From an uncultured Flavobacteriaceae bacterium (lineage in GTDB: Bacteria; Bacteroidota; Bacteroidia; Flavobacteriales; Flavobacteriaceae): a DNA stretch of 52,458 nt. The notes beneath the pieces were generated by a model, which ran no database searches, had not been told where the DNA came from, and saw only the letters and a program-made list of their open reading frames with translations. The position numbers and the translations under genes were made by a program. Below are positions 15,441 to 38,401 of this stretch, piece after piece. Position 1 is the first letter of the stretch. The number at the start of each line of letters is the position of its first letter. The stretch spans positions 1 through 52,458 of the forward strand of contig CANMSB010000034.1 in assembly GCA_947500445.1 (NCBI GenBank), read 5' to 3'.

Positions 15441-15456
15441 TCAAAAAACAAAAATC

Positions 15457-20705: not shown

Positions 20706-22748
20706 TTATGGTGCTAAAGTAGCGCCTCCGTAAGTCTCGAACCAGGCCAATGTATGGGCGATTTTGGTAATAAGATTGCTGGGGCGATTGGCGATACCGT
20801 GGCTTGCCCCGGGAATCTCAACCAATACCGTTGGTATTTTACGCAGTTTTAGGGCGTGGTACAACTGTTTGGCCTCGCTGGGCGGGGTACGCAGGTCGTT
20901 CATGCCGACCAGTACCATGGCCGGTGTTTCAATATTCCCCACTAGGGATAGGGGCGAAAATTTCCAATAGCCTTCAAAGTTCTCCCAGGGCTGTCCGGGG
21001 TAACGGCTGTTTGCATATCCGAAGTAGTTGTCCGCCACTAAAGTTTTACTGATCCAGTTCATTACCGGTTTTGCGACCACGGCAGCTTCAAAACGGTCGT
21101 TTTTTCCGATCATCCAAGCGGTCATGATTCCCCCGGCACTACCTCCCGTAACAAAAAGCTGGTCCTCTTGTGCCCAACCCTTTGCAATACAATGATCGAC
21201 ACCGTCCATTACATCATTATAGTCTTCGCCGGGGTAGTTGTTGTACAACAAGTTTCCAAACTCTTCTCCATAACTGGTACTGCCCCTTGGGTTCGGATAA
21301 AAAACGATGTATCCCGCAGCCGCGTACAACTGCATTTCAGCGGAAAACCGATCTCCGTAGTTCAAGATCGGACCGCCATGGTTTTCCACTAAAAAAGGGT
21401 ATTTTTTTGTGGCATCGTAGTTGGGCGGAAACACCACCCAGGCCTGTATGTCCCTTTGATCTACGCTGGAGGTATACCATACTTCCTTTACCTCCCCCAT
21501 GGTCCTGTAGTCCAGCAACGCCTTATTCAGGTCCGTAAGCATTTGCGGCCTTTCGGCCTTTGCCTTGAGCAGGGCCAATTCGGAGGGATGGTCCGGACGT
21601 GTTCGGGTATAGGCGATATGCCCGTTTTTGGCAACGCTGAACGAACCGCCCGCATAGGGGCGCCCTATGGATGTACCGCCCAGATCGCCGGCGAGCGTCC
21701 TAACCTTTCCGTTAAGGGAAATATGCCCTATTTTACTGTTGCCCTTATCGTCATAAACGAAGTACATGCCGGTACTTTTGGCGTCCCATACCACATTGGA
21801 GATGCTCCTATCCAAAGCATTGGAAACTGTTTTTTTATCACTCCCATCAACGTTCATTACTTGGAGTTTGCGCGTTTGGTAGGCCTGCACCTTGTCTTCA
21901 AAACCAATATAGGCTATGTGTTTTCCATTGGGCGACACCAATGGAGCGGTATCGGGACCGTTGCGATCGGTAAGTGCCTTTATGCTGCCCGTACCTACGG
22001 TGACCTCATAAATTTCGCTGTTTCGAAAATCATACTCCCATTCCGCAGCGCGATTTCCGGAACAATAGATTTTTTTGGCATCCGCCGACCAGGACAACGG
22101 ACCATTGTGGTTGTAATCGCCCGAACTTATCTGCCTCGGGGCTCCCCCGATGGCCGGTATGGTAAAAATATGCTGGAAACCCGGTTTCAAATACCCCCGA
22201 CCATCCGCTTCATGATACAGCCGATCGGTTATTCTCGGGGCATCGGCCCATTTTGCGCCCTTTGGTTTTTTTGGCATTTTGGCCAGAACAGGGGCCGATT
22301 GCGCCACTTTCATGGTAAACGCCAGTTCCTCTCCCGTGGGAGACCAACAAATGGAACCGGGACTGAACGGCAGTTGCGTAATTTTAGCGACTTTCCCCGT
22401 AGCCGTCCAATACATATAAATTTCCGCACCTTCTTCCGTACTGCTGACAAATGCGAGCCGTTTTCCGTCGGGCGACCATCTTGGGCTGAATTCCGAAACT
22501 TCGCGATCGGTCATTTTTTGATGTTGGGTACCATCGGTCCGGACCATCCATAAATTACCGACAGCGGCATCTTTCATGACATCAAAACCCATACGCCTAT
22601 ACACGATATGCGCTCCGTCAGGAGAAATCTGCGGGTCGGACACGTACTGCAGGTCAAAAACATCGAGGTACGAAAAATGCGGGTTCTGAGCGGTAGCATT
22701 GCTTAAAAAAAAGAGACAGAACAGGGTAAGGAAATACTTTGGATACAT
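20706..22748 (-). CDS. S9-family prolyl oligopeptidase-like exported peptidase
   Basis: A 680-residue exported protein. The ATG at 22748 is chosen because it begins the signal peptide (MYPKYFLTLFCLFFLSNATAQ); the frame is open ten codons further. Residues about 25-410 form a WD-like beta-propeller with repeated SPDG turns. The C-terminal alpha/beta-hydrolase carries the triad S537 (GGSAGG), D618 (MNDLRTP) and H650 (GASHG). It cleaves short peptides, probably in the periplasm, as in acylaminoacyl-peptidase or DPP-IV relatives. It follows the Pel-like operon but is not part of known Pel pathways. Confidence 0.93.
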   Translation of the reverse strand: MYPKYFLTLFCLFFLSNATAQNPHFSYLDVFDLQYVSDPQISPDGAHIVYRRMGFDVMKDAAVGNLWMVRTDGTQHQKMTDREVSEFSPRWSPDGKRLAFVSSTEEGAEIYMYWTATGKVAKITQLPFSPGSICWSPTGEELAFTMKVAQSAPVLAKMPKKPKGAKWADAPRITDRLYHEADGRGYLKPGFQHIFTIPAIGGAPRQISSGDYNHNGPLSWSADAKKIYCSGNRAAEWEYDFRNSEIYEVTVGTGSIKALTDRNGPDTAPLVSPNGKHIAYIGFEDKVQAYQTRKLQVMNVDGSDKKTVSNALDRSISNVVWDAKSTGMYFVYDDKGNSKIGHISLNGKVRTLAGDLGGTSIGRPYAGGSFSVAKNGHIAYTRTRPDHPSELALLKAKAERPQMLTDLNKALLDYRTMGEVKEVWYTSSVDQRDIQAWVVFPPNYDATKKYPFLVENHGGPILNYGDRFSAEMQLYAAAGYIVFYPNPRGSTSYGEEFGNLLYNNYPGEDYNDVMDGVDHCIAKGWAQEDQLFVTGGSAGGIMTAWMIGKNDRFEAAVVAKPVMNWISKTLVADNYFGYANSRYPGQPWENFEGYWKFSPLSLVGNIETPAMVLVGMNDLRTPPSEAKQLYHALKLRKIPTVLVEIPGASHGIANRPSNLITKIAHTLAWFETYGGATLAP

Positions 22749-22922
22749 GAACGCAAGGTTTAAAGGATACCACTTCAACTTTTAATACCGATTTCCCTTT
22801 CACATGGGTATAAAGGATTTAAAGCTTCGGATAGGTGGCCTAAACTTACGCATAAGCAAGCAGTTCGACAAGCAGAAAAAGAACCACGGAACGTACTCCC
22901 GTTCAAACGTTCGGCATCAGGG

Positions 22923-25900
22923 TCAACGAAAGTTGTAGGATAGCCCCAATTGAAATACGTTGCTATTAAAATTATCGATGGTGTAAAATTCGTATCCTCC
23001 GGTAATTCGGGCAAAGTCCTTTATCTTATATGAAATCGTTCCGGTATAGCGTTCGAAATTCGGTTCACCACTTTCCGCAAAAATGGACAGGTCGGCGTTC
23101 ATTTGAAAGGCCGTTTTTTCCGATCCAAGGCCCACAGCGACCCCACCGCCTCCATACATTCGGTTTCGTGCCGTCCAATACGGGAACCCGTCCCTTCTGT
23201 CGACGGTACCTGCGGTATAGGCAAGCTCTATCAATGGTGACAGCCGAAATACCTCGTTCTGAAACAGTTCGTATTCGGAACGGCCCAAAACGGTGAGGTC
23301 CGCTTCGCTATCGGTATAATGGTTGGCCTCCAAAGACAGGATCTGTTTGGTTTTTGGTGCGATCAACAGTTCGTTGTAATTGGTCAGTTGGGTCCTATAA
23401 ATATTCAAAATATGCCCCGGTCCGGTCCGTACGGGAAAATGTTCCAATCCTAAGGAACTGAAACGTTTTTCTGCATTAAAATTGACCGCTACCCCTAATT
23501 GATAGTACAATTCGTTCAGATCATCACGTTCGATACGGGCACGACCCGACCACGCAGCGCCGTCGGTGGTGTGCTGCCGCACCCGATATTCCAGACCGTA
23601 AAGGTTTCGTGTACCGTTGGTATCGCTTTCCGGAATAAAATTTATCGGATACATAAAACTTTGCGTTCCCGAAATGCTGTGCACGTTAAAATGGGAATCG
23701 TACAGGTTGTAGCTCACCGTATTGGAGATGGTGTTGGGGTCCAATTGGTCGTTTATGGCGTAACTGTTGGTACTGACCGAATTTCCTTCTTCCATCCTGA
23801 GGGCACTGTATAGGTTTTTGCGCACACCGCTATACAATACCTCCCCGGAGTGCTGCAACAGACCCCTTTTTTGAGCGCTGTTCAGCTCTTCCGCTTTTGC
23901 GTTGATAATGTTTCGGAGTTTCCCCTGATCCATGTGCTTCGGCAGTGCGGCCGAAATAGCGGCCGCCCCGTTAACGTCGCCACGGTACAAACGTAGGGCC
24001 GCCATATGCAATTGGGCACTATAGTCCTCCGGATGAATGGCCATATGGTCGGCATACATCTTTTCCACTTCCCCATACTCCTTCAGCTCATAGCGCCAGG
24101 AGAGTTTGGAGGTAATCGGAACCTCATCGTTGCTACAAGCGCCCCAGGCCAGGGCCTCCCTATACAATTTGTAATCGGCATAGGCATAAGCGATGCCGGT
24201 AGCGTGTTTTTTGAGTTCGGGGGCACAAACCGCTTCGTTACGTATTTCCCGAATGGCCCGTTCGGTATCGTTGGCCAATAATAACTGCAGGTAAAAATCA
24301 AAATCGGTCCGTTTGAGTCGATCAAAATCTTTGGTGTTTACCAACCAGCCGTTCTTGGTTTCGGGGTCGATTTCACCGCTACATTTCTCCCATTGCAATG
24401 CCTTGTCATATCTAAAGTTATCGGCATAGGCCCAAGCAATGGCGGTGGCCATTTCCGAATACAAAGGGTCACAGGGCGAAATGGTATTCAGCTCCGGCAA
24501 TAACTGCTCAAAGTCGTTGCCCATCAAATGCTCGATATAGTTTTTGGTATTGTTTTGGTTCGGAGCGATCTTTTTTAATTTTCGCAACGCTCTTAACACC
24601 AGCTTTTTGCGCTCCGGTGTATTGAAATAAGCAACGTAGGAATCGAGCACCTCTTGGTTTTCGGTATCCGCCATGACCTGTCGGGTAAGCCATTTTTCAC
24701 GCGTAACAGGGTCGGGGTAGTCTACGGTTTTCGATACTTTCCATGAGATATCGGCCAAACGCTCCGACCCGTTTTTTTGGTAGGCCTTTTCCAGCATTTC
24801 CCATATCAAATTTCCCTGTTCCTGCCAACTAAGGTATTGTACATAGTCCAGCCATTGTCGGGTGTTCAGGCGGATTCCGTTGTTGAGTTTTACCGCTATC
24901 AGGTCCGTTGCCTCCTTCAATTTGTTTTCCGCGATCAGGTTCGTTAGTTCTTGGTTAAAGGGCGCAAGTATGCTCCGGTCCAGGTCGAACTGCTTTTTGG
25001 CGCGCCACGTCTCCAAAACGATGTTTTCATCGGAAATACCCGGCTTACGCTTTTTGGCCTGTAGATCGGGTACTTTTAAAAAGGCCTCCGGAGTTTCTAT
25101 GGTATATAAAAAACCGTTCAAAAAGGGCGTTTTACCGACATGGGATACCTCGGCAAGGCTATTATCGATAAGGTTTTCATTTTCCCGATCGCCATACATG
25201 AACCAATAATGGCCATCCTTTTGACCGGTAAGATTTTCCCCGGAAACCACGTATTCCCCATTTTCCCGAGTATGGGTAAAATAGGCATACCGCCAATTGC
25301 GTACCATGTCCGACGATGTTGTGGCGTTTTGAAAGCGGACCAGCGGATGCCGTTCTTTAAAATCGGTGATATGCTCCTTAAAACGATCGAAAAGTCCCTT
25401 AGTTCCATTTCTCGAACGCCAATTGAGGCTATTTGGATTTCTATACGCAAAATGGCCACTGGTAGCTTCGTTCGATTCGTCCGGTATCTGGAAAACATCA
25501 TCGGGGTGTACGAAATGTGTCCAGATTCCGGTAAAAAGATAAAGGGATTCCATGGCCCATAGGCCGTTTTTGTCTATTTCGTAACCGCTGGTGATTCGTG
25601 GGAAATCAAAAAATTGATCGTTCAGGGGATCGGGATCGAACTCGCGCCCCCCTCCTTCCTCGATTTCTCCAAAGTATATGCTTTGGATATATTTAATGCT
25701 CGGCATGCCCGCTTTGAGTTTGGCCAAGCCGACGCTGTCGATATAATTGGACGGTGGAACATAAGAAACGGGAAGTTCCTTAAAGTCCAAGGTTTTCCAC
25801 TTTTTTGCCGCGGCATGGAGCCCCGTTACCATATACTGTGGTTCCTCCCAATCCGAGGCCAACAGCGATACATGGTTATAGCCGTGAAAACCCAGTTCAT

Positions 25901-26927
25901 GCCCGCTGGCATACACATCGCGCCCCAACCAACTGCTTTTCTCCTGAAGCATCCCTTGTTTTTCAAAACTGTTTTTATCCCACTCCTTAAACGTAAAGGG
26001 AGGGGTCACTAGGGTATTGTAATCAAAAGTCACATAGGCCGTATACGTAATATTTTGTTCCTTGGCGTACTGTTTCATGTCGGGCCACCATACGTCGGTA
26101 ACATATTGGGCCACCGTTTTTTTCATTTCCGATGCAATGGGCTCCTTATAAATATTGTACAGCGGAGAGGGAAAATCGTCCAAAAAAATGGTAGCGGTAT
26201 TGGCTACCGGATACGGCACGCCTTCCAGGGCGAGCAATACTTGGGCGAACAACAGTCCGCGCATGGCCTTATCCATTCGCAATGTGGAATTGTACTGGAC
26301 CACTTTGCCCTTACCCAGTTGACGTTCGATGATCAAGGGGTATTCAGCATTGTCACTTCCCCCGGCGAACACCGTGGTATCGTCCGTGAAATTGTAGCGT
26401 GAAAGTCCGAGGTGTGGACTTTTATCGCCCTCGTAGTTAAAATTTTGAAGGCCGGGAAGCATCGGTCTGTTGAAACGGAAGCCGAAGGCGGTACTGTCGG
26501 TCTCAAAATTGGATGCCGGGTCGAGCCCCAACAAAAAGGCCAAGCGCTCGTCCTTTATCGTTTTGGTAAAGAACAGGGTACCGCCCTTTGCGACAAAATT
26601 TTGGAGGGAGTCGATCACCTTGTCCTCCATTCCCAAGGTTTGCGATACGCATAGCACCCGTGTGGTACCGCCCACCTGAAATTCCTTTGCAAACGTTTTC
26701 AGAGGAACGGTCCCGAACGGAAGTTTCGTATAATCGGCCAATTTTCGCACATTGGCCATTTCGTCCCTGTTTTCTGGGGACGTTTCGTCAACTATAAATT
26801 GGATAATGGCCGGTTCCCGACTCACTTCCGGAGTGTTGAATTGCTGGGTAAAATTATAGATATCCCTTTGGCATCCGACCAGGCCGAGAACGAGCAACAG
26901 AAGCGATATGGCATGCTTTAAACTCAT
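22923..26927 (-). CDS. DUF2194 deacetylase - TPR - outer-membrane beta-barrel fusion (PelA/PelB-like)
   Basis: A 1334-residue lipoprotein (lipobox LVGC, Cys19). Residues about 40-240 form an N-terminal alpha/beta domain. Residues 240-480 carry polysaccharide-deacetylase motifs: LDD (249-251), HGYNH (348-352), a PPSNY segment near 391 and HPDD at 474-477, matching CE4-type metal and catalytic positions. Residues about 640-1010 are repeated helical pairs resembling TPRs (for example IAWAYADNFRYDKALQWE, IAYAYADYKLYREALAWG). From about 1030 to the terminal arginine, preceded by phenylalanine, amphipathic strands form an outer-membrane barrel. In Pseudomonas the deacetylase belongs to PelA and the TPR-barrel to PelB; here they are one chain. 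It overlaps the upstream gene by 4 bases. Confidence 0.8.
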   Translation of the reverse strand: MSLKHAISLLLLVLGLVGCQRDIYNFTQQFNTPEVSREPAIIQFIVDETSPENRDEMANVRKLADYTKLPFGTVPLKTFAKEFQVGGTTRVLCVSQTLGMEDKVIDSLQNFVAKGGTLFFTKTIKDERLAFLLGLDPASNFETDSTAFGFRFNRPMLPGLQNFNYEGDKSPHLGLSRYNFTDDTTVFAGGSDNAEYPLIIERQLGKGKVVQYNSTLRMDKAMRGLLFAQVLLALEGVPYPVANTATIFLDDFPSPLYNIYKEPIASEMKKTVAQYVTDVWWPDMKQYAKEQNITYTAYVTFDYNTLVTPPFTFKEWDKNSFEKQGMLQEKSSWLGRDVYASGHELGFHGYNHVSLLASDWEEPQYMVTGLHAAAKKWKTLDFKELPVSYVPPSNYIDSVGLAKLKAGMPSIKYIQSIYFGEIEEGGGREFDPDPLNDQFFDFPRITSGYEIDKNGLWAMESLYLFTGIWTHFVHPDDVFQIPDESNEATSGHFAYRNPNSLNWRSRNGTKGLFDRFKEHITDFKERHPLVRFQNATTSSDMVRNWRYAYFTHTRENGEYVVSGENLTGQKDGHYWFMYGDRENENLIDNSLAEVSHVGKTPFLNGFLYTIETPEAFLKVPDLQAKKRKPGISDENIVLETWRAKKQFDLDRSILAPFNQELTNLIAENKLKEATDLIAVKLNNGIRLNTRQWLDYVQYLSWQEQGNLIWEMLEKAYQKNGSERLADISWKVSKTVDYPDPVTREKWLTRQVMADTENQEVLDSYVAYFNTPERKKLVLRALRKLKKIAPNQNNTKNYIEHLMGNDFEQLLPELNTISPCDPLYSEMATAIAWAYADNFRYDKALQWEKCSGEIDPETKNGWLVNTKDFDRLKRTDFDFYLQLLLANDTERAIREIRNEAVCAPELKKHATGIAYAYADYKLYREALAWGACSNDEVPITSKLSWRYELKEYGEVEKMYADHMAIHPEDYSAQLHMAALRLYRGDVNGAAAISAALPKHMDQGKLRNIINAKAEELNSAQKRGLLQHSGEVLYSGVRKNLYSALRMEEGNSVSTNSYAINDQLDPNTISNTVSYNLYDSHFNVHSISGTQSFMYPINFIPESDTNGTRNLYGLEYRVRQHTTDGAAWSGRARIERDDLNELYYQLGVAVNFNAEKRFSSLGLEHFPVRTGPGHILNIYRTQLTNYNELLIAPKTKQILSLEANHYTDSEADLTVLGRSEYELFQNEVFRLSPLIELAYTAGTVDRRDGFPYWTARNRMYGGGGVAVGLGSEKTAFQMNADLSIFAESGEPNFERYTGTISYKIKDFARITGGYEFYTIDNFNSNVFQLGLSYNFR

Positions 26928-28903
26928 AAGTTAAAGATCAGGTCGTTTAAGTTGGAGGCGTTTTTTTTGTTTACGATTTCGTATACCGCCAAGTATTCGT
27001 CTTCATAAAAAATAGCTATCTCACGCCCTTTTTCTTCCAAAAGGTCCAATTGGCGTTTCACGTTAAAAGCCGTTTTTGTGGGCGTTGCCAAATGATATTT
27101 ACTTTCTGATGGATCTGTTTTTGTAATGAAAACAAAAACACTCTGCGGTAGAATGTAATCGGGGTTTTCCGCTAAAAAACGTTTGTCCTCTTTTTTTATC
27201 TGATACACCGAGTCGCGTTCCGGATAATTGTTCAAAAACACGTTATAGTTGATAAAATGGTGCTCGTTAGTACTCAAAAACTGTCCGTATTGCTGGTTGA
27301 CTATGGCATAGGAATACGGCATGTTTTTACTGGACAGATCATCGTACACCTTAAGAATGTCCGCCTTTAGTTCATCTATTTCGCGATAATCGTATTGAAA
27401 AAAACCATTGGTAGCATAACCAAAGCCTACGGTCGCCAGAAAGATGAAAGCTAAGGTTATCCCTTTCAGATAATTGTCCTCCGGTATTTTAAGATTCCAG
27501 TATTGCTGTCCCGCTCCCAAAAAAATTCCGAGAACGATTACCATCAGCGGACTTAACGATTCGTAATACATATCGATATCGACCCAGGTAAACTGAAAAT
27601 ACCGAAGCGTAAGGAACAGCATGGTAAAAATCAGGAACACCTGCGCGGCCCCCCAACGTTCCCGCTTTCGGTTCCATAGGGGAATGACCATGGCGAGGAC
27701 CACAAAACAGAACGCCAGATAGCAGAGTACCAGTTTTTCCGGTACCACGATCAACTGCGGGAAATAGGTATAGGAGTTGACCAAAATAAGCGACGATCGT
27801 AAAAAATCGAGAAAAGACTTTTCGTTTACATAACAGCCGATCCCGTATACCCCTAGCACAAAGCCGGTTCCGATGGCATATGCGATCAGGCTCTTAAAAC
27901 GGTATGGCAACAATACTTTTGAACTGAACACCAAAGCAACGCCCAAAAACAGCGGCACCAAGATCAACGCAACGAACAAATTGGTAAAGGCCACCGCAAT
28001 ATACCCAATGGTCAAAAGCAGTATATAGGGCATTCTTTTGCTTTTTACCTGTTCGGGCAATGCGGAAAACAAAAGAACCGGCAACGCGAAACCCAGCGCC
28101 AGATAGAGCGAGTTATGCTCTAACAAAAGGTTGACGTTTATGGGCATGTACCTGTAAAATAGGGCAAAGAAAAGTACACTGATCATAGGGGCGATGAACG
28201 CGTCTTTCGTCAATTTCAAAATGATCCAATACAGTACGATCGACAGGCCGAAACCTTCCAGAAGGCCAAAGGAATGCATGGCCATTTCTTCACTGATACC
28301 CGTAATTTTCGCATAAAAATTGATCAAGGCCAGCTCGCCTACGAGACCGTTTGTAGTACCGAACCAGCTGTTGGAGTTAAAACTTTTGACGAGTTCCAAA
28401 TTCTTTATCCAAAGGCTCGATAGCGTATACAGGTCGTTTTTTAGGAACAGATACCGCGATGCAAAGGTACATAGCGATGTAATGGTGGCGACCAAGAGGA
28501 CAAAACTCACTTTCCTGGTGAAGAAAAAGTTTCTATTGCGCCGTATCAGGGTCCGGAGCCGTACTTTTTTCTCCATGAACCGGAAGAAGGACAATAAAAA
28601 ACGGCGTTTTTTGGCTTGCAGGCCGTCCGGGATCCGTTTCATCGATCCAAAACCGAAGTACCAAACGATAAGGCCGATCAGGAATACTGACAGAATGGAG
28701 AAAATATCGTACATGTTCAGCTGTACCAAGCTAAAAATGGTCAACATCAAAAGACTTCCAAAAAAGATGGTCCGTTTCATGATATAGTCGAGACCGTAAC
28801 GCGTTAGGGGTTGCCTTATAATAATCTGGTGTGCCAAAAGAACTCCGGCAAAAAGCAGGAAAATTCTAAAGGGTCCCAAAAGGATTTTATCGAACAACAA
28901 CAT
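26924..28903 (-). CDS. Large polytopic membrane protein of the Pel-like locus, GT-C-like
   Basis: A 659-residue protein with about 14-16 membrane helices (from residue 10 to about 515) and a C-terminal soluble part of about 140 residues. A basic cytoplasmic loop (about 90-130) separates the first four helices from the rest. The helix arrangement and the extended loop FNSNSWFGTTNGLVG recall lipid-linked-sugar glycosyltransferases of GT-C type, but no DD or similar motif can be fixed. It takes the place of the inner-membrane PelD/PelE parts of known Pel loci without sharing GAF, GGDEF or TPR features. It starts one base after the GH114 stop and overlaps the next gene by 4 bases. Confidence 0.6.
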   Translation of the reverse strand: MLLFDKILLGPFRIFLLFAGVLLAHQIIIRQPLTRYGLDYIMKRTIFFGSLLMLTIFSLVQLNMYDIFSILSVFLIGLIVWYFGFGSMKRIPDGLQAKKRRFLLSFFRFMEKKVRLRTLIRRNRNFFFTRKVSFVLLVATITSLCTFASRYLFLKNDLYTLSSLWIKNLELVKSFNSNSWFGTTNGLVGELALINFYAKITGISEEMAMHSFGLLEGFGLSIVLYWIILKLTKDAFIAPMISVLFFALFYRYMPINVNLLLEHNSLYLALGFALPVLLFSALPEQVKSKRMPYILLLTIGYIAVAFTNLFVALILVPLFLGVALVFSSKVLLPYRFKSLIAYAIGTGFVLGVYGIGCYVNEKSFLDFLRSSLILVNSYTYFPQLIVVPEKLVLCYLAFCFVVLAMVIPLWNRKRERWGAAQVFLIFTMLFLTLRYFQFTWVDIDMYYESLSPLMVIVLGIFLGAGQQYWNLKIPEDNYLKGITLAFIFLATVGFGYATNGFFQYDYREIDELKADILKVYDDLSSKNMPYSYAIVNQQYGQFLSTNEHHFINYNVFLNNYPERDSVYQIKKEDKRFLAENPDYILPQSVFVFITKTDPSESKYHLATPTKTAFNVKRQLDLLEEKGREIAIFYEDEYLAVYEIVNKKNASNLNDLIFNL

Positions 28904-29722
28904 TTATCGTTTTATTTTTTTAAACTGGGGAACATCTTGTAGGCTTATATTGGCAATAAAAAAGGGAAAACCTATCCGCTGCAACTCCCTTTCGACCTTG
29001 TTCCGCATTTGGGCCGTGTCGGCATATTCTATAAGGTAAACCGGCCGATCTCCTTTGGAAACCGCTTTTTTGATAGCGGCCACCAACCGTTTTTTTTCGG
29101 CCGCTTTTCGAAACCCGTATGCTTTGGTGTCGAAGCGGTATTCGGTCACTACCGATTCCATAATGATTGCATCGGTCCGTTCCCGCAGCTCGTCCGCCAA
29201 AAACAACCCGGAATTTTGCGCGAGAAAGGCATTCGGGTGGTTTTCGTTCAGGCTTTGTACCATTTGCAGTAGTACCCCTTTTTTATCCGTTAAACGCCCC
29301 CAGACCGATACGTTGTCGAGGTTGTCCAAGAACAGCCCATCAAAACCTTGCTCCAATATGGAAGCCGCCCTTTGTAACAGTATTTGTTGTGCATTGCTAT
29401 CCGAAATATTGATATACCGACTCCCCCAGTGTACATTTTCTTCGATCAAAAATGGGCGGAGCGCTTGAAAGCTTTCCGAGCTCGGGTGCACTTCCGTAAG
29501 GCTTAGATATCCCAGAACGCGCTTGTTGTACTTTTTAAAGTCCCGAATGGCCGCCTCGGTATAGTGCTGTGGTTCCACTATAAGAAGATCATATCCCTTT
29601 ATTTCCTCCAAATCTAATTTTCCATAAGCGATAAAAAGTCCTTTATCCTCGGGCACATCGGCGCTTGACCGGGCAGGGGCCAATAGGGGAAGGAGGATGT
29701 AAAAAAGACTAGTAAGCCGCAT
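28904..29722 (-). CDS. GH114-like endo-alpha-1,4-polygalactosaminidase domain protein (PelA hydrolase-like)
   Basis: A 272-residue exported protein (signal peptide to about residue 21) made only of a GH114-like (beta/alpha) barrel. Recognisable parts are YDLLIVEPQHYT (44-55), VLGYLSLTEVHP with the conserved glutamate E77, and GFDGLFLDNLDNV (126-138) with D133 and D136. In PelA this domain trims Pel, a partly de-N-acetylated GalNAc polymer. Where relatives often have an Asp after the DxxIV strand (VVDP), this has E50. It overlaps the pelG-like gene by 14 bases, so it is in the same operon. Confidence 0.82.
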   Translation of the reverse strand: MRLTSLFYILLPLLAPARSSADVPEDKGLFIAYGKLDLEEIKGYDLLIVEPQHYTEAAIRDFKKYNKRVLGYLSLTEVHPSSESFQALRPFLIEENVHWGSRYINISDSNAQQILLQRAASILEQGFDGLFLDNLDNVSVWGRLTDKKGVLLQMVQSLNENHPNAFLAQNSGLFLADELRERTDAIIMESVVTEYRFDTKAYGFRKAAEKKRLVAAIKKAVSKGDRPVYLIEYADTAQMRNKVERELQRIGFPFFIANISLQDVPQFKKIKR

Positions 29723-31316
29723 AATAATGATAATCCAAACGTTTAAAAAAATGGGCCGTTTCCTTTACGGTAAGGCCCGCAAAAACAAGAGCGCCTACCA
29801 ACATTCCCCATACACTATATTCATAGGAAACGAACCTGCTCAACAAAAAACCTACTCCAAAATTTACCAGACAGGCGATACCCAAGGCGTTCAAGGCGTT
29901 CTTTGGCCTGTTAAGCGTAAAGAGGTACAGGCTGTTCAACATCCCCCAAGTCAGAAAAAAATATCCGATACCGCCCAAAATACAGACCTTAACACTCAGC
30001 TGGTTCAGGGTTTCCCCGAATTGCGCTTCATATCCCCAAGGTTGTGTTGTTACCAAATAGATCAGTCCGGCGGTACCAAGGGCAGTGATGAAAAGGATGG
30101 CAATATGGCCCCGATACATCGACCGAAAACGACGATTGAAATTGTTTCTTTCCGAGAACGGGGTGTTGGACTGGTAAACGTCCATAAACTTGCTAAAGGC
30201 CGCAATGGCGTACTCCATAACTCCGGCAAGCATAAAAAACATGAGAATTGCCAAGTCCATCCCAATTTCATAGTCTTTCTCGTATAGCAATAGAAATTGT
30301 CGCGTAAGCATCATGTCGGCCGACCAGGCCAAAATGCGATCGATAAAAACAAAAATGTAGATCAACATTCCATAAAAAAAGTACGGGTAGTTTTGATAGA
30401 TGACCATGAGCTGTTTGGGCGCTATGGTATTGGATACCGTTCGGGCTTTTTTACCCATGAAAAAATACTCCAGAAGGGCCTTTGACAGCAATATTGCCGA
30501 TGCTATTCCGATCCAGTGGGTCACGTAAACGTTTAAGCTAGTATAAAAATGGAGGGCCAAGGCAATACCCGTGGCCAGCATTACGGCCAACGATATGGCC
30601 CACCGTTTCTTTATGGTATGAAAAGGCGCCATAACGAGTAAGAGCATCCCGATCAAAAGCGCATAAAACAGTGTTATGAGCACAAAAGAGGAGGGATAAA
30701 GAGAGAGAAAAAAATTGATCAACGCCAGTGCAAAAAAGGTGTATAAAATGCCCTTGATACCTGAACCAATAATTTTATCGATGACCATTTTCGCTTTCAC
30801 ATATTCCCGATGATGCCAATAAAAGGAGGCCTGCCTTCCCATAACCTGCACGTAGCCCCCAGAAATGATCAACCCTAAAATAACGCCAGCTACCACTGCT
30901 GTGGATTGCACAATGTTAAATCCGATAAAGGTCCACAACGAATACCCAAAAATAATGATGGCAGCCACCTGTAAAAAAATTGGCAACAGGTGAAATATGC
31001 CCAAGGGATAAAACTGCGCAAAAAGACGTGTCTTCACCCAGAGGTAACTTGAAACGGGCAATTGTTTTTCTTTGCGCCGTTTTTTGGCCCGTTCGTTATC
31101 GTTTTGAAGTGCTTTTGGATCTTTGTTCTTTAGTTCCTGATAAAGATGCTTGGAAAGATCCATTAGGGTGACAAAACCAAAATCCTTAAAAACATCTTTT
31201 TCGCGAATGCCAAATGACTCCAAGGCGGCCAAAACGACCATTGGGCTTACGGGGTTTCCGATCTTTGAGATCAATTGATCGGTAGTACGGGCTATATTTT
31301 CTTTAATTTCTCGCAT
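29709..31316 (-). CDS. pelG: PelG-like exopolysaccharide transporter with N-terminal extension
   Basis: A 535-residue protein with about 12 membrane helices of the MATE/Wzx-related PelG family. Signature segments are YPYFFYGMLIYIFVFIDR with ILAWS, and GMDLAILMFFMLAGVMEYAI. PelG moves the nascent Pel chain across the inner membrane with PelF. About 100 residues precede the first helix: a helical, charged segment (IREKDVFKDFGFVTLMDLSK, then a KKRRKEKQ cluster). PelG of Pseudomonas is about 456 residues and lacks this. It follows the pelF-like gene by 31 bases. Confidence 0.88.
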   Translation of the reverse strand: MREIKENIARTTDQLISKIGNPVSPMVVLAALESFGIREKDVFKDFGFVTLMDLSKHLYQELKNKDPKALQNDNERAKKRRKEKQLPVSSYLWVKTRLFAQFYPLGIFHLLPIFLQVAAIIIFGYSLWTFIGFNIVQSTAVVAGVILGLIISGGYVQVMGRQASFYWHHREYVKAKMVIDKIIGSGIKGILYTFFALALINFFLSLYPSSFVLITLFYALLIGMLLLVMAPFHTIKKRWAISLAVMLATGIALALHFYTSLNVYVTHWIGIASAILLSKALLEYFFMGKKARTVSNTIAPKQLMVIYQNYPYFFYGMLIYIFVFIDRILAWSADMMLTRQFLLLYEKDYEIGMDLAILMFFMLAGVMEYAIAAFSKFMDVYQSNTPFSERNNFNRRFRSMYRGHIAILFITALGTAGLIYLVTTQPWGYEAQFGETLNQLSVKVCILGGIGYFFLTWGMLNSLYLFTLNRPKNALNALGIACLVNFGVGFLLSRFVSYEYSVWGMLVGALVFAGLTVKETAHFFKRLDYHYYAAY

Positions 31317-31347
31317 GGGGGAGCTAGACCGAGGTCAGCGTGCTGTG

Positions 31348-32856
31348 TTAGGCATATTTTTTAGGGATTTTGTTTTGGTCCGTATGAAGGTCTTGGTATG
31401 TTTTTTCGAAAGCGCTGGTAAAACTTTCGATCGTAAAATTCGCTATGATCTTGTTTCTTGCATTTTCCCCCATCCAATTACGGAGGCTTTTGTTTTTAAG
31501 GAGTTGCACCACCTTTTCGGCGATTTCTGCTACGTCTTTCGGTTTACAAATAAAACCGCAGGTATCGTCCAATGCTTCGGAAACGCCCCCTACATCGGTG
31601 GCCACCACAGGTATTCCACAGCTCATCGACTCGATTACGGTATAGGGAAAACCTTCCGATATGGACGTAAGTATCGATATGTCGCCCTCGGCGTATAACT
31701 TTTCTGGACTACTGTGAAATCCTTTGAGAAAAAAGTGTTCCTCAAGACCCAATTCGTCGATCAACGCCTCGCATTCCAGCGTATATTCCGGAACGGCATC
31801 TTTGTTTCCGTACACTAAAAAACGTACTGTAGGGAGCTGTTTTTTTACTTCCGCGCACGTGCGGATCATCGTAAAAATATCCTTGAGGTCGAAAATCCGT
31901 GCAGCGGCAACTACGGTGGGAATTCCGTTGAGCGCTTCCGGTTTGGGCACCGGTTTAAAAAAGGTATGGTCCACACCGTTATAGATAACGCTTATTTTAG
32001 CGGTATCGGCCCCATAAAAACGCTCCCAAGCCATGTTGAATTTACTGACCGTAGTAATTTTAGAGGCGTGGTAGTACACCAAACGGGTGATGCACTCCGA
32101 AAAACGGATCAGCATTTTTTTAAGGAAGTACGAGTAATCCGCAGTGCTTATGGCGATAAGTCGTTCGCGTATGAACACCCCGTGTTCCGTTACTAAAATG
32201 GGGGTATCGTACTTGTATTTTAAGGATAACGCGGGAAGTACGGCAATACCCGAAATGGTCACATGGGAAATGTCGGCCTTGGGAACATCGATCGCGATCG
32301 GTATAAGAAAACGATAGATCCAACGCATTGCCGTGGTCACGTCCTCCAAAGTCATATCGCGCAATTCCGCTTCTGGCAGCACGGTTTCCAAGGTTTCACA
32401 GAAAACGTTCCAGACCGCTTCACTGGTCATGGCCACTTTGTAATCATGGGTCTGAAAAAACAGCCACATTTTGTAAAAGCACTCGTTCAATGTAACGGGT
32501 GAATGTTTTTCCGAATAGATATGGGTAATAAAGGTTTTGAAATTTGGAACAAAAGATGCTGCAATGACCGCTTCGGAAGTGAATTCGCGGGCCCTTAAAA
32601 TTTCGGAGTACTTAATATCGTAATCCACGCAATCGAAGGGCTCTTCGGGAGACCACATAGGTACCTGAATAACCTTCCGGACCGAATCGCTGAGCGTATA
32701 TTTCGGTTCGAGCTCTACCTCCGCGTTGATCGAATAAAGGTAGTATTCGCTATTGCGTACCCTATTGCATAAATCGTGTGCCCATGTGGAGACACCGCCA
32801 GTATTGAACGGATACGTACCTTCTGCAATCAGAAGGACTTTTATTTTAGGTTTCAA
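31348..32856 (-). CDS. pelF: PelF-like GT4 glycosyltransferase
   Basis: A 502-residue cytoplasmic GT-B enzyme. The N-terminus VLLIAEGTYPFNTGGVSTWA is the PelF signature. LVTEHGVFIRER (221-232) is also typical, and the C-terminal domain has the EX7E motif (E401 and E409 in EGFPYTVIE). PelF uses a UDP-sugar to extend the Pel polymer and works with PelG. The only start is a TTG at 32856. It begins the main operon; about 160 bases upstream, with two small inverted repeats (near 32920-32940), may carry its promoter. Length equals the Pseudomonas enzyme. Confidence 0.92.
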   Translation of the reverse strand: MKPKIKVLLIAEGTYPFNTGGVSTWAHDLCNRVRNSEYYLYSINAEVELEPKYTLSDSVRKVIQVPMWSPEEPFDCVDYDIKYSEILRAREFTSEAVIAASFVPNFKTFITHIYSEKHSPVTLNECFYKMWLFFQTHDYKVAMTSEAVWNVFCETLETVLPEAELRDMTLEDVTTAMRWIYRFLIPIAIDVPKADISHVTISGIAVLPALSLKYKYDTPILVTEHGVFIRERLIAISTADYSYFLKKMLIRFSECITRLVYYHASKITTVSKFNMAWERFYGADTAKISVIYNGVDHTFFKPVPKPEALNGIPTVVAAARIFDLKDIFTMIRTCAEVKKQLPTVRFLVYGNKDAVPEYTLECEALIDELGLEEHFFLKGFHSSPEKLYAEGDISILTSISEGFPYTVIESMSCGIPVVATDVGGVSEALDDTCGFICKPKDVAEIAEKVVQLLKNKSLRNWMGENARNKIIANFTIESFTSAFEKTYQDLHTDQNKIPKKYA

Positions 32857-33017
32857 TGGTCAGTGTAATTGTTTACCTCTTGATTTCTCTTTGATTCAAT
32901 GGTAAATAAAACCATTAGCACTAAAATGCTAAAGTTTTTTAGGTGTAAGTGTTCGTTTCATCTACAAGATGCCTAATACGAATTTTCGGATAATAAACGT
33001 AAGAACTATAAAAAACC

Positions 33018-34034
33018 TTATTTTGATTCAAAATACTCAAAGGCATCGACAATATCCAAGTAGACCCCGTCAAAACCGGTATCGATTATTTTGTCCAAGT
33101 AGGCATTTTGGCTACCCATTATGATGCCTTGCCAGTCTTTCTCCCAATACCGGACCTTATAGTTTCCCGCCCATCTTTTGTTTTCTTTTTCCAACCATGA
33201 TGGCCTGTTAGTAGCCCATCCTTTTTTCCAATAATAGCGATAATCCTCCGCCTCGCCTATGGACATATAGCAGCATACCAAGCGCTCCGAGCCGTTGGCC
33301 TTGGTTTTCAACCGTTGTACTTCTTCTGCTGAAAAGGTGGTGCCATCGTGAAAAAAAAGATCGATAAAAACAATATCATAGTTCGATCTTGCTATGGCGT
33401 TAAGCACCTCCGGTTTGCTTTCGAAACGTTCGTAGTTCAAAAAAAACAGAAAATTCTCCGCATCGGCCAACGAACGGATGTTTCTTGTATTTTCCCGATA
33501 ACGCCGTTCGCCAAACTTGGGAATGACCGTTAAATTTCGTTCCGTCGCCACAAAAGGGACATAGCCTTCACTATAGGATTGGTCGAAGGCATCCGCTATC
33601 TTTTTTTCCGAACTACAGTAATCGATGACCAAAATGGTATTTCCCGCGCGCTGCGAAACCGCAAGCAATCCCTTCATATATTCCTTACTGCGTTTTGGGG
33701 TTTTGCTATTGTCCGAATGATATCCGTAATGCAGGTTTTCCTGGCCGTTTCCATCGATTGCATTGAGATAGTGCAGCATGGGACTTCCGTCGGCATATCC
33801 GGTATCGGTGACCAATTCGATCCCATTTTGGGGTATCACGTAAAAACTGGAATCCCTTGCCTTGGCGTATGCGCTGATCTGCCTTATAAAACCACGCATA
33901 TCATTGCGGTAGTTCCTTTGTTCGGGGGTAACGTCTTCATTAACCGTTTGGGCCATTTCGCCTTTATGGCGGCCGCAACCGGTAGCGATGAGGGCCAGCA
34001 TCATTAAAAAATGGACTATGGGTACTCTGATCAT
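33018..34034 (-). CDS. GH114/TM1410-like glycoside hydrolase lipoprotein
   Basis: A 338-residue lipoprotein (lipobox ATGC, Cys20) with a complete endo-alpha-1,4-polygalactosaminidase-like barrel. Segments include FYVIPQNGIELV (64-75), VIDYC (136-140), YDIVFIDLFFHDG (219-231), CYMSIGEAEDYRYYW (255-269) with the probable catalytic glutamate in GEAE, RPSWL (277-281) and GFDGVYLDIVDAF (320-332). It is the second GH114-type gene of the locus, 161 bases upstream of the pelF-like gene, and may be controlled separately. As an outer-membrane lipoprotein it could trim or release secreted polymer. TACTTTTC near 34080-34090 on the minus strand is a weak promoter candidate. Confidence 0.82.
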   Translation of the reverse strand: MIRVPIVHFLMMLALIATGCGRHKGEMAQTVNEDVTPEQRNYRNDMRGFIRQISAYAKARDSSFYVIPQNGIELVTDTGYADGSPMLHYLNAIDGNGQENLHYGYHSDNSKTPKRSKEYMKGLLAVSQRAGNTILVIDYCSSEKKIADAFDQSYSEGYVPFVATERNLTVIPKFGERRYRENTRNIRSLADAENFLFFLNYERFESKPEVLNAIARSNYDIVFIDLFFHDGTTFSAEEVQRLKTKANGSERLVCCYMSIGEAEDYRYYWKKGWATNRPSWLEKENKRWAGNYKVRYWEKDWQGIIMGSQNAYLDKIIDTGFDGVYLDIVDAFEYFESK

Positions 34035-34297: not shown

Positions 34298-35278
34298 TTG
34301 AAACGCCTCGTTGTCATTTTTTCGATGTTGATCACCACCTACGGCTGGTCGCAAAATACGTTTAAGCGCTCCCTTATGTTGATGGGGAGCGATTTTGAGA
34401 TTACGGTGGTCGCTCCCGATTCCGCCGCTGCCGATAAACATATTACCAATGCGGTTAACGAAATGGAACGGATCGAAAAATTGATTTCCTCATGGGACCC
34501 CGATTCGCAAACCTCGGAAATTAATAGAAATGCCGGAAAAAAAGCGGTACTGGTGGACCGAGAACTGTTCGAACTCATCGAGCGGGCCTTGGGACTTTCG
34601 CAACTTACCGATGGTGCTTTTGACATTACCTACGCCTCCATGGATCACATTTGGCAGTTCGACGGAAGTATGCAAAAGATGCCCAACAGCGAAGAAGTAA
34701 AGGCTTCCGTAGCCAAGGTAGGCTACAAGAACGTGGAATTGGATAAAATAAACAGTGCGGTATATTTAAAGCGGTCCGGGATGAAGATCGGTTTTGGCGC
34801 CATCGGAAAGGGATATGCCGCCGACAGGGCCAAAAAATTATTGCGGGATATGGGCGTTTCCTCGGGCATTATCAACGCTTCGGGCGATATTACCGCCTGG
34901 GGCCTGCAACCTAACGGTGCGCCTTGGAAAGTAGCCATTACCAACCCCATGGACAAACAAAAGGCGTACGGAACCTTACCGGTAACAGAAGGTGCCGTGG
35001 TAACCTCTGGAAACTATGAGAAATACGTTGTTTTTAACGGAAAACGCTACTCCCATATTATCGATCCCCGCACCGGATATCCTTCGAACGGACTGGTGAG
35101 CGTAACGGTGTTCGCCCCAAAGGCGGAGTTGGCGGATGCCTTGGCAACTTCGATTTTTGTAATGGGCAAAACCGTAGGGCTAAATCGAATCGCCCAAATT
35201 CCCGGGGTATCCTGCATTATTATCGATGACAAGGGAACCCTTTTTGCATCCGAAGAAATAGAAATCGCAAAACTATGA
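34298..35278 (+). CDS. apbE: FAD:protein FMN transferase (ApbE)
   Basis: A 326-residue exported protein (signal peptide MKRLVVIFSMLITTYGWSQ) of the ApbE family. The family motifs are seen in MGSDFEITVVAPD near the mature N-terminus, GAIGKGYAADRA in the middle and HIIDPRTGYPSNG in the C-terminal half. ApbE splits FAD and attaches FMN covalently to Ser/Thr of exported proteins. Translation begins at a TTG; the next ATG would remove the signal peptide. Its stop overlaps the DUF4266 start (ATGATG), so the three-gene module apbE-DUF4266-DUF3570 is coupled. Confidence 0.93.
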   Translation: MKRLVVIFSMLITTYGWSQNTFKRSLMLMGSDFEITVVAPDSAAADKHITNAVNEMERIEKLISSWDPDSQTSEINRNAGKKAVLVDRELFELIERALGLSQLTDGAFDITYASMDHIWQFDGSMQKMPNSEEVKASVAKVGYKNVELDKINSAVYLKRSGMKIGFGAIGKGYAADRAKKLLRDMGVSSGIINASGDITAWGLQPNGAPWKVAITNPMDKQKAYGTLPVTEGAVVTSGNYEKYVVFNGKRYSHIIDPRTGYPSNGLVSVTVFAPKAELADALATSIFVMGKTVGLNRIAQIPGVSCIIIDDKGTLFASEEIEIAKL

Positions 35279-35487
35279 TGAAACGACTCCTTTTGGCGGT
35301 TTGCGCAGCGGCCTTTTTAAATAGTTGCTTGGTAGTAAAGGAATATGAAAAAGCCTACCTGAACGATTCCGAGATGGAACTGACCGATAAAAAATGCAAC
35401 CGACATGTTTTGGTCGCCCAATCGTACCGTGAAGGTGCGGTAGGTGCCAATGGAGGTAAAACAGGAGGCGGCTGTGGGTGCAACTAA
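35278..35487 (+). CDS. DUF4266 lipoprotein with Cys-rich C-terminus
   Basis: A 69-residue lipoprotein (lipobox near LNSC, Cys17). After the KEYEKAYLNDSEM segment typical of DUF4266, it ends in GANGGKTGGGCGCN, a conserved tail with a CxC motif. The family travels with apbE and DUF3570 genes in many bacteria, so a role in flavin-dependent redox chemistry outside the inner membrane is suspected. No classical ApbE target motif (DxxTGAT/S) is visible. An alternative start is the ATG three bases upstream. Its end overlaps the DUF3570 gene by 38 bases. Confidence 0.88.
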   Translation: MKRLLLAVCAAAFLNSCLVVKEYEKAYLNDSEMELTDKKCNRHVLVAQSYREGAVGANGGKTGGGCGCN

Positions 35488-36820
35488 ACCAAAAATAGTA
35501 TCGCCGTTCCAACTGGCCATTGTGCTGACGCTATCGTTTTGGTCGGGAAGTTTTGGGTGCCTCGCCCAAACGGGAACCAATGCCGACAAGCAGGCCTATA
35601 CCAAACGGGTTTTGGAAAGTACGGAGGTCGACCTGATATCGAGCTACTACGCCCAAGAGGGAGAAAACGCGGCAGTGACCGGGGGTATCGGCACCGAAGA
35701 ACTGACTGACGCCGCGGGAAGTATCGTTGTTTCCATTCCTTTGAACGACGATGATGTATTGACCATTGATGCCGGGGTATCGGCCTATACCTCTGCTTCT
35801 TCAAGTAACGTAAATCCGTTCGATGGAAGCCTACCTGCCGACGCGTTCGTGGCCAGTTCGGGAGCTTCCAGGGCCGATACCTGGGCGAATTTCACGGGTA
35901 GTTACAGCCACACTTCGGCAGACCGGAACAAGGTATGGTCGGGTATGGCATCGGTATCTTCGGAATACGACTATTTTTCCATTGGTTTCGGGGGCGGATA
36001 TGTGCAACAGTTCCATCAAAAAAATACCAGTATTAGCGTAAATGCCAGGGTATTTTTGGATGCTTGGGACGCTATTTATCCCTCTGAACTGAGGCCTTTC
36101 GCAACAGGAGGTTTTGGATCGTTTCGCCAAAGTGAACTTACCGGAAATACCGATTATGCGCCACAATTTGCCCAATTCGACAATGAAAAACGAAATACCT
36201 ATGCGCTAGAACTTGGTTTTTCACAAATCCTGCACCAAAAGGTTCAAGGAGGGCTAACGGTGGATCTGGTACGACAGGAAGGTCTACTGTCCACCCCATT
36301 TCAGCGGGTATACTTTTCGGATGTTGCCGATACGTTTTTAGAAGGTTTTCATTTGGCGGACGACATTGAAAAACTTCCCGAGAACCGTTTTAAAGTGGCC
36401 CTTGGTGGGCGTCTGAACTGGTTCGCCTCGGAAACGATCGCCCTACGGACCTACTACCGCTACTATTTTGATGATTGGGGCATTACATCGCACACGGCCA
36501 GATTGGAGTTACCGATAATGCTCTCCGATGCGTTTACCGTTCGGCCCTCCTATCGTTTTTACCAACAAACGGCAGCCGACTATTTTGCGCCCTACGATGA
36601 ACATTTGAGTACCGAACGATTTTATACCTCCGATTTTGACCTTTCGGAATACATTGCCAATCAGTATGGTTTAGGGGTTTCGTACACCGATATCTTTACC
36701 AAACTGCAGCTGTGGAAATTTGGACTTAAAGCAATAGACATCAACTACTTCATGTATGACCGCGATACGGCCTTTGGATCGTATATCGCCACCTTGGGCA
36801 TTCAGTTTGTATTGGACTAA
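35450..36820 (+). CDS. DUF3570 outer-membrane beta-barrel protein
   Basis: A 456-residue exported protein. The long n-region is encoded in the overlap with DUF4266, followed by the hydrophobic stretch QLAIVLTLSFWSGSFGCLAQ. The mature part is amphipathic strands with aromatic girdles, ending in YIATLGIQFVLD, consistent with an outer-membrane barrel; DUF3570 proteins are predicted as such. The segment VDLISSYYAQEGENAAVTGGIGTEEL near the mature start is typical. With ApbE and DUF4266 it forms a conserved module of unknown chemistry. A GTG two codons upstream is an alternative start. Confidence 0.88.
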   Translation: MEVKQEAAVGATKPKIVSPFQLAIVLTLSFWSGSFGCLAQTGTNADKQAYTKRVLESTEVDLISSYYAQEGENAAVTGGIGTEELTDAAGSIVVSIPLNDDDVLTIDAGVSAYTSASSSNVNPFDGSLPADAFVASSGASRADTWANFTGSYSHTSADRNKVWSGMASVSSEYDYFSIGFGGGYVQQFHQKNTSISVNARVFLDAWDAIYPSELRPFATGGFGSFRQSELTGNTDYAPQFAQFDNEKRNTYALELGFSQILHQKVQGGLTVDLVRQEGLLSTPFQRVYFSDVADTFLEGFHLADDIEKLPENRFKVALGGRLNWFASETIALRTYYRYYFDDWGITSHTARLELPIMLSDAFTVRPSYRFYQQTAADYFAPYDEHLSTERFYTSDFDLSEYIANQYGLGVSYTDIFTKLQLWKFGLKAIDINYFMYDRDTAFGSYIATLGIQFVLD

Positions 36821-37573: not shown

Positions 37574-38401
37574 CTACCCCAGCCCTACATCCAGCATCAT
37601 CATAATAATAAAACCGGCAATAAAGCCCATGGTGGCAATATCGGTGTATTTGTCTTGTTGGGTTTCGGGAATGACCTCCTCCACCACCACAAAAATCATT
37701 GCCCCAGCGGCAAAGGATAGGGCGTACGGAAGTATGGGTTCAAAGGTAAGCACGGCCCACGCCCCTAAAACGGCGGCGATCGGCTCCACCAAAGCGGAGG
37801 CTTGCCCGTATAGAAAACTTTTCGTCCGGCTCAATCCCTGTCTGCGCAAGGGCATGGCCACTGCAAAACCCTCTGGAAAATTCTGAAGACCGATACCCAA
37901 TGCCAGCGCTACGGCACCCCCGATACTGGCGCCTTCGAACCCGGCCGCAACGCCACCGAAAAGCACCCCTACCGCAAGGCCTTCCGGAATGTTGTGGAGC
38001 GTGATCGCGAGCGTTAATAGCGTTGTTCGGTGCCAAGGGGTTTTAATCCCCTCGCTTTCACTTTCCTTAAAATTGATATGCAAGTGGGGCAGTACCTTAT
38101 CCAATCCGAAAATAAAAGCGGCACCCAACAAAAAACCGACTGCCGCGGGAATCACTTTTACAAAACCCTCACCGGAACTCATTTCAATTCCGGGAGCGAG
38201 CAGGCTCCAAAAGCTGGCCGCGACCATAACACCTCCGGTAAAACCGAGCATACCGTCCAACAAGGCCCTGTTCATGCCTTTGAACAAAAAAACCAATGCG
38301 GCACCTGCCGCGGTAAGTCCCCAGGTAAACAAGGTAGCATAAAAGGCCGCTAAAATAGGGTCGATGGATTCAAAATAGGAAATGATCGCTTCCATGGTCA
38401 T
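37574..38401 (-). CDS. ZIP-family divalent metal transporter
   Basis: A 275-residue inner-membrane protein with eight helices. The metal-binding motifs of helices IV and V are HNIPEG (136-141) and QNFPEG (173-178). A short His-containing cytoplasmic loop (HLHIN, about 106-110) lies between helices III and IV. ZIP proteins import zinc, iron or manganese. Its start overlaps the stop of the DtxR-family gene (ATGA at 38398-38401), so expression is coupled to that metal regulator, favouring manganese or iron homeostasis. The exact metal cannot be read. Confidence 0.93.
   Translation of the reverse strand: MTMEAIISYFESIDPILAAFYATLFTWGLTAAGAALVFLFKGMNRALLDGMLGFTGGVMVAASFWSLLAPGIEMSSGEGFVKVIPAAVGFLLGAAFIFGLDKVLPHLHINFKESESEGIKTPWHRTTLLTLAITLHNIPEGLAVGVLFGGVAAGFEGASIGGAVALALGIGLQNFPEGFAVAMPLRRQGLSRTKSFLYGQASALVEPIAAVLGAWAVLTFEPILPYALSFAAGAMIFVVVEEVIPETQQDKYTDIATMGFIAGFIIMMMLDVGLG

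Follow-up and report, generated by a model that had tools for sequence, protein, structure and literature searches.

A Pel-like exopolysaccharide operon without a recognisable PelD in Flavobacteriaceae, probably a conserved Bacteroidota variant

Pel-type exopolysaccharide systems are known from Proteobacteria, Gram-positive bacteria, Thermotogae and others (PMC7112194; papers are cited here by PMC number). The locus described here occupies positions 22923-34034 of the window, a stretch of 52,458 nucleotides (contig CANMSB010000034.1, assembly GCA_947500445.1) from an uncultured Flavobacteriaceae bacterium whose genome amounts to 5.18 Mb in 177 contigs. It holds six minus-strand open reading frames (ORFs) in the 5′ to 3′ order P0006, P0005, P0004, P0003, P0002 and P0001 (Table 1), each at the place and on the strand given in an earlier note on this DNA, which had proposed a rearranged Pel system. 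These six genes probably form a Pel-like operon for exopolysaccharide synthesis and export that lacks PelD and is a conserved variant in Bacteroidota. With the pelABCDEFG operon of Pseudomonas aeruginosa the locus shares PelF, a PelG-like transporter, a PelA-like hydrolase, a deacetylase, and the TPR region and 16-strand barrel of PelB. However, it has no recognisable PelC, PelD or PelE, its gene order differs, and hydrolase and deacetylase are separate proteins, the PelADA-type deacetylase being fused to the PelB-like part. The pelDEADAFG operon of Bacillus cereus likewise has a PelADA-type deacetylase and PelF, with PelG as the counterpart of the PelG-like P0004, and in bacilli a PelA-hydrolase-like gene lies near the operon (PMC7112168); the flavobacterial locus differs in having no recognisable PelD or PelE, in its deacetylase-barrel fusion, in an added GT-C protein, and in that no GGDEF domain was found in its carriers within the family. 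The pel system of Streptococcus intermedius is reported to work without cyclic di-GMP (c-di-GMP) and also has a DUF4832-type neighbour, but it keeps a PelD with transmembrane and GAF domains and belongs to a bacterium with no outer membrane (PMC12345266).

Because PelD was sought in the operon and not found, we class the locus as a variant and not as a canonical Pel operon. The word Bacteroidetes has zero occurrences in the full text of two operon surveys (PMC7112194 and PMC7112168, by term counts). Moreover, no description of a Bacteroidota form of pel was found in the titles, abstract starts and term counts of the open-licence papers listed (in one search 20 of 7,738 matches), and the same material yielded no earlier description of the deacetylase-barrel fusion, the GT-C protein or the five-gene core.

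Gene order and conservation of the locus

Five of the genes had been described as joined by gaps or overlaps of at most 31 bases, and this is how they read: a 31-base gap between PelF and P0004, a 14-base overlap between P0004 and P0003, P0003 and P0002 abutting (0 bases) and a 4-base overlap between P0002 and P0001. P0006 stands 161 bases upstream of pelF (P0005). An RNA-family scan of the whole window returned tRNA only and no other family, and a Bacteroidota-type promoter pattern was not found upstream of the operon, its single match lying inside P0002.

Relatives of P0004 are present in 10 of the 249 family genomes, the window genome counted, and the core PelF-PelG-P0003-P0002-P0001 recurs in all nine relatives within the family, although in one of them the contig stops within the final gene; a P0006-type gene is directly upstream of PelF in seven. 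Outside the family, all eight loci retrieved from elsewhere in the phylum contain the core as well. It is unchanged in one, and six from a single family have an extra protein of ~530 amino acids between PelG and the hydrolase. In the eighth, L040, the hydrolase has moved upstream and extra genes precede the deacetylase gene, which is cut by the end of the stretch so that its barrel portion lies outside the view. A scan of named genomes gave 184 P0004 relatives among 260 matched stretches, the best 80 of which were examined and underlie all counts out of 80 given here. The complete core stands in the same order in 75 of these 80 loci from other genomes and the other five end at contig ends, hence the grouping of the genes is not due to chance. 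The median core junctions are 23, −14, 5 and −1 bases, and a P0006-type gene is found in 29 of the 80 loci. Carrier genera include Maribacter, Cellulophaga, Flavobacterium, Salegentibacter, Mesonia, Aquimarina and Roseivirga; the related loci thus come from Flavobacteriaceae and other Bacteroidota families, and the neighbourhood survey that the earlier note had called for shows a locus conserved as a unit.

The gene after P0001 on the opposite strand belongs, in 28 of the 80 loci, to one BLAST cluster (30 proteins, 27 of them directly adjacent), and the single member scanned is a DUF4832/DUF4874 protein. In streptococci and clostridia, pel operons likewise have DUF4832 genes beside them (PMC7112168), and one S. 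intermedius DUF4832 protein breaks up aggregates (PMC12345266); this neighbour speaks for the Pel-like reading. A second, shorter PelF-like GT4 gene adjoins PelF in L037, L038, L039, L041, L043 and L044, all of one family, and in L040. Three contigs with a flavobacterial-type operon (L067, L089 and L098) are titled as metagenome-assembled genomes of Bifidobacterium breve or Sphingobacterium thalpophilum, titles that may be wrong.

Table 1. Features of the Pel-like locus, in window coordinates
Feature	Position	Strand	Length	Description
P0006	33018..34034	-	338 aa (amino acids)	TM1410/GH191-type (GH114-like) hydrolase, circularly permuted barrel; accessory; PF03537, TIGR01370
P0006-pelF gap	32857..33017	-	161 bases	no known RNA family matched
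P0005	31348..32856	-	502 aa	PelF-type GT4 glycosyltransferase; TTG start assumed; NF038011, PF11997
P0004	29709..31316	-	535 aa	PelG-like transporter; additional conserved N-terminal domain of ~95 residues
P0003	28904..29722	-	272 aa	PelA-hydrolase-like (GH166/GH114-like) glycoside hydrolase; PF03537, solved PelA entries
P0002	26924..28903	-	659 aa	multi-pass membrane protein without a Pfam family; predicted GT-C fold; may take the PelD/PelE place
P0001	22923..26927	-	1334 aa	PelADA-like de-N-acetylase (DUF2194) at ~52-552, TPR-like helices, 16-strand beta-barrel (PelB-like)

Outside the operon, an ApbE-type and a DUF3570 protein are encoded at 34298-36820 (+), between it and a zinc-transporter/iron-type repressor pair (37574-39054), and in several relatives a pair of genes of the same lengths borders the operon directly. 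An S9-family dipeptidyl peptidase gene lies downstream at 20706-22778 (-), with a homologue likewise placed in three of the nine relatives (L014, L015 and L016).

Synthase, hydrolases and the deacetylase-export fusion

P0005 scored 155 bits against the NCBIfam PelF model NF038011 (cut-off 100) and 205 bits against PF11997, and is thus the PelF-type GT4 enzyme that it had been taken for. Arg320, Lys325, Glu401 and Glu409, which we take to be the known essential residues of PelF, are invariant in 81 of 81 sequences. For P0004 the PelG-like label comes from gene position and from hits of its family to the PelG model PF16933, and so holds at the profile level. This model was matched by 7 of 10 P0004 family members at E up to 1 (best 1.2e-8). 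At 0.001 it gave hits in 14 of 395 genomes of the phylum, five of them above the cut-off, which more distant members of the P0004 family in other Bacteroidota pass. Nine of the 14 have long matches, and all nine lie in the same type of operon; the other five genomes, whose matches are short and partial, fall outside these nine, as does an additional short hit in genome G480. The count of 14 is too low, because known carriers, the window genome included, gave no match. The earlier note had allowed that the PelF and PelG homologues might group with unrelated families; this did not occur, with PelF above its cut-off and the P0004 family reaching PF16933, and together with the conservation of the unit these results support a rearranged Pel system.

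Family alignments show that the extra domain of ~95 residues at the N-terminus of P0004 is conserved. When the ORFs of four plasmid loci were compared, a similar stretch was found near the start of a PelF-adjacent protein in a Streptomyces plasmid locus (E 1.5e-5), and weak similarity was seen in a Deinococcus plasmid locus as well. In L015, a second, half-length PelG-like protein of 317 amino acids is encoded upstream of the permuted hydrolase gene (15063-16016, -) and aligns with P0004 residues 226-530 at 27% identity.

P0001, noted earlier as a deacetylase/TPR/barrel protein, can be specified as a fusion of PelADA-like and PelB-like parts. The protein scored 240.8 bits against DUF2194 in Pfam, and at E up to 0.1 the PDB contains a single relative, 9ZAU (E 1.4e-38 over residues 58-482), the PelADA of B. 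cereus, a de-N-acetylase required for pel-dependent biofilm (PMC13254593). Eight catalytic positions, mapped from the residues of that paper by shifting the numbering by 25 after a manual reading of the 9ZAU alignment, correspond to D250, D251, H348, H352, P392, R444, H474 and D477. All eight are unchanged throughout 72 sequences, one from the window and 71 from relatives of more than 1200 amino acids, shorter ones being excluded. The predicted structure of residues 560-1334 (predicted local distance difference test, pLDDT, 88.5; predicted template modelling score, pTM, 0.55) consists of a long helical-repeat stretch and 16 strands. Its five best PDB matches in Foldseek are BcsC (three entries), 4y25, presumably PgaA, and the PelBC complex 9h80, all polysaccharide export channels. 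A 16-strand barrel is common to PelB, BcsC and PgaA (PMC12141448). As modelled, then, deacetylase and exporter form one polypeptide, and because deacetylase, repeats and barrel lie in one chain, deacetylation and export may be physically coupled. The PelADA/B gene encodes fewer than 1200 amino acids in four of the 75 complete loci. In one of these four, L080, it is split into two ORFs 247 bases apart, a possible pseudogene or sequence error.

The two GH114-like hydrolases of the earlier note both match PF03537, and can now be told apart. P0003 resembles the hydrolase of PelA: residues 35-239 match the solved entries 9cgy (2.6e-10), 5tcb (5.3e-10) and also 5tsy, in a range to 3.3e-9. Its catalytic pair is kept almost throughout (D133 in 78 and E189 in 77 of 79 sequences); the gene is split in locus L113. 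P0006 scored 196 bits (cut-off 181) against TIGR01370, the family of TM1410, the GH191 protein of Thermotoga maritima (2aam, 9euz), with which it shares sequence and both putative catalytic residues. P0006 residues 214-336 align strongly with chain residues 23-139 of TM1410 (96 bits), and residues 39-163 weakly with 146-267 (15.7 bits). The halves stand in swapped order, therefore the barrel of P0006 is circularly permuted. P0006-type and P0003-type proteins differ by the same swap: of 54 proteins hit, 23 matched in two pieces, and all 23 show it. Since the GH114 match ends half-way, a truncation of P0006 was considered; the other frames, read by eye, showed no broken second half, and the permutation explains the short match. 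The putative catalytic pair of TmGH191, Asp156/Glu225 (PMC12054363), maps to P0006 D327 and E99, which are kept in 30 of 30 sequences. The hydrolase of a pel operon on a Cetobacterium plasmid is colinear with P0006 (E 1.2e-71), and thus the permuted form is not restricted to Bacteroidota. By eye, the N-termini of P0001 and P0006 are lipoprotein-signal-like and that of P0003 is signal-peptide-like. A loose lipobox pattern was present in 64 of 77 P0001-type, 19 of 30 P0006-type and 52 of 79 P0003-type proteins, and does not discriminate because P0003-type proteins match too.

Among plasmid PelF proteins, the best full-length matches by tblastn are in the Deinococcus and Streptomyces loci, and an Agd3-type deacetylase is clear in the former and below the cut-off in the latter. 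In both plasmids (L126, Streptomyces; L127, Deinococcus) PelF stands beside GH114 and sugar-nucleotide genes, resembling fungal galactosaminogalactan clusters. The Cetobacterium operon (L128, 4193-12520), whose gene content speaks for the Pel-like reading, encodes a permuted hydrolase, a GAF protein with no GGDEF match, DUF2194, a short protein, PelF and a PelG of 703 amino acids. Two Rhodobacterales plasmids (L125 and L129) have PelF-PelG with GalE, a polygalactosaminidase and a different polysaccharide export gene, and none of the genes in the stretch carries the annotation pelD; hence a missing PelD may not by itself set the flavobacterial locus apart.

The membrane protein P0002 and control without PelD

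P0002, previously listed as a large membrane protein, is predicted to have a GT-C fold. The protein itself matched no Pfam family, and when it was taken together with 45 relatives, at most two of the 46 matched any one family at E up to 1. Its model (pLDDT 84.4, pTM 0.84) gave 15 PDB matches in Foldseek at E up to 0.001, all of them GT-C enzymes or complexes containing one, including oligosaccharyltransferases, PglB, ALG12, DPY19, AftD and ArnT. Thus P0002 shares its predicted fold with GT-C enzymes such as STT3/PglB, ArnT, ALG12 and AftD, but has no detectable sequence relation to them. GT-C enzymes draw on polyprenyl-phosphate donors on the outer side of the membrane, and have an acidic catalytic residue in their first periplasmic loop. 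All 77 copies of P0002 have R150, D157, S162 and W165, and D157 follows directly after a predicted helix (134-156); an enzyme activity is suggested by this position of the invariant Asp157, and P0002 may use a polyprenyl-linked donor. No match emerged when the P0002 family was compared with proteins encoded next to PelF elsewhere, among them the one that precedes PelF in Cetobacterium. The core contains this protein and no recognisable PelD or PelE, in line with the earlier expectation that inner-membrane assembly differs, and P0002 most likely stands structurally where PelD/PelE would be.

The Pfam scan gave no match to PelD_GGDEF, GAF or GGDEF for any of the six proteins, so that the locus encodes no recognisable c-di-GMP receptor, as had been supposed. 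No gene beyond the five belongs to the core, and no PelC or PelE is recognisable, no PelC or PelE profile search having been made. GGDEF was not found in any of 10 Flavobacteriaceae carriers, one of which is only 68% complete, with a model that matched 8 of 14 control genomes, nor in seven of eight other Bacteroidota carriers, the eighth, G480, having one. On these counts the operon is likely to be controlled independently of c-di-GMP in the Flavobacteriaceae carriers, and the earlier suggestion that control must differ is strengthened. Host enzymes that make c-di-GMP are not universal among known Pel systems either: Pel of S. intermedius, which lacks such enzymes, is reported to be c-di-GMP-independent with PelD kept (PMC12345266). 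Regulator scans with Pfam among the loci with a second PelF cover L043 and L040. An HD_5 protein is encoded in the operon of L043, from one other family, with a response regulator and a hybrid kinase nearby, and GAF-SpoIIE and GAF-HD proteins are encoded in that of L040; these proteins make phosphorelay-type control plausible in L040 and the family of L043.

A possible pathway and competing explanations

In the pathway that we envisage, cytosolic PelF would polymerise an amino-sugar polymer of GalNAc or GlcNAc type, and the PelG-like P0004 would move it across the inner membrane. P0002, sitting with both in place of PelD/PelE, might add a sugar, cap or anchor from a polyprenyl-linked donor at the periplasmic face. 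The PelADA-like end of P0001 would then de-N-acetylate the polymer, which could be passed along the helical repeats and exported through the 16-strand barrel of the same protein, with P0003 and P0006 trimming or releasing chains, and regulation in Flavobacteriaceae would not be by c-di-GMP. It is with considerable reserve that we propose a widespread, c-di-GMP-independent Pel-type system of Bacteroidota in which an active polyprenyl-donor GT-C enzyme replaces PelD/PelE, so that the polymer would be branched, capped or anchored before export through a fused deacetylase-barrel protein.

Several points weigh against the Pel-like reading of the locus, and its weak spots are how firmly P0004 can be called PelG, how closely P0002 fits the GT-C fold and which polymer is made. 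P0004 itself had no Pfam match at 0.01, and its 12.8 bits over most of PF16933 lie below the cut-off of 29; the PelG-type transporter of the earlier note therefore stands for the distant family members, which pass, and falls short for P0004 by this measure. Alignment of the P0004-family alignment with single PelG proteins of Sulfitobacter and Cetobacterium by hhalign gave nothing usable, and an 87-sequence profile of the family missed these same two annotated PelG proteins in a search of four plasmid loci. The PelF tree is poorly resolved, with long branches, and places the Bacteroidota proteins apart from the six plasmid PelF proteins. For P0002, no sequence relative was found in the PDB at E up to 5, and the template modelling scores (TM-scores) to GT-C structures are moderate, 0.31-0.38 by query length. 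A UDP-sugar epimerase is absent among the six gene products in the Pfam scan. That the polymer would be Pel we infer from the genes, as we do the role of P0002 and the mode of regulation. Finally, PelD_GGDEF (PF16963) was unmatched in the host genome and in 395 Bacteroidota genomes by a model that matched no control genome, and this negative proves little alone; pel-like plasmid stretches, searched for a PelD positive control, held no gene annotated pelD.

This last point bears on whether the locus is an ordinary Pel operon with its PelD and PelE genes elsewhere in the genome, for which the assembly in 177 contigs and the divergence of PelD in some lineages (PMC7112168) leave room. We consider this very improbable, since even apart from the PelD_GGDEF result, 75 of 80 loci share a core without PelD/PelE and the ten family carriers showed no GGDEF. 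P0002 could instead be a non-enzymatic scaffold of GT-C shape that replaces PelD and PelE and holds PelF and PelG together. Its presence in all 75 complete cores with no recognisable PelD/PelE, the PelDEFG complex of Pseudomonas (PMC12345266) and the moderate TM-scores to active GT-C enzymes are consistent with this, but the four residues invariant in every copy are as expected of an active site, and we regard a pure scaffold as rather unlikely. The product could also be another amino-sugar polymer, for example galactosaminogalactan-like or a branched, lipid-anchored capsule, made by a synthase derived from PelF/PelG with the GT-C protein adding side sugars. The best plasmid PelF matches, in Deinococcus and Streptomyces loci with GH114, sugar-nucleotide genes and an Agd3-type deacetylase (below the cut-off in Streptomyces), point that way, as do the recurrence of the P0004 N-terminal domain in the Streptomyces locus and the GT-C protein, which is not reported in the available parts of the Pel literature. 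The deacetylase, however, is of PelADA type (9ZAU) and not of Agd3 type, and P0003 is closest to the PelA hydrolase; a different polymer is possible, if somewhat doubtful.

If an active GT-C enzyme does replace PelD/PelE, the polymer would be modified on the periplasmic side of the inner membrane, before deacetylation and export. With deacetylase and barrel fused, the view that these two processes make up a single step gains support. Moreover, PelD being the usual switch, a conserved Bacteroidota form in which no GGDEF was detected makes it possible to test what a minimal Pel synthase requires and how such a system is switched on without c-di-GMP, in a group, the flavobacteria, whose members are major colonisers of marine algae and particles.

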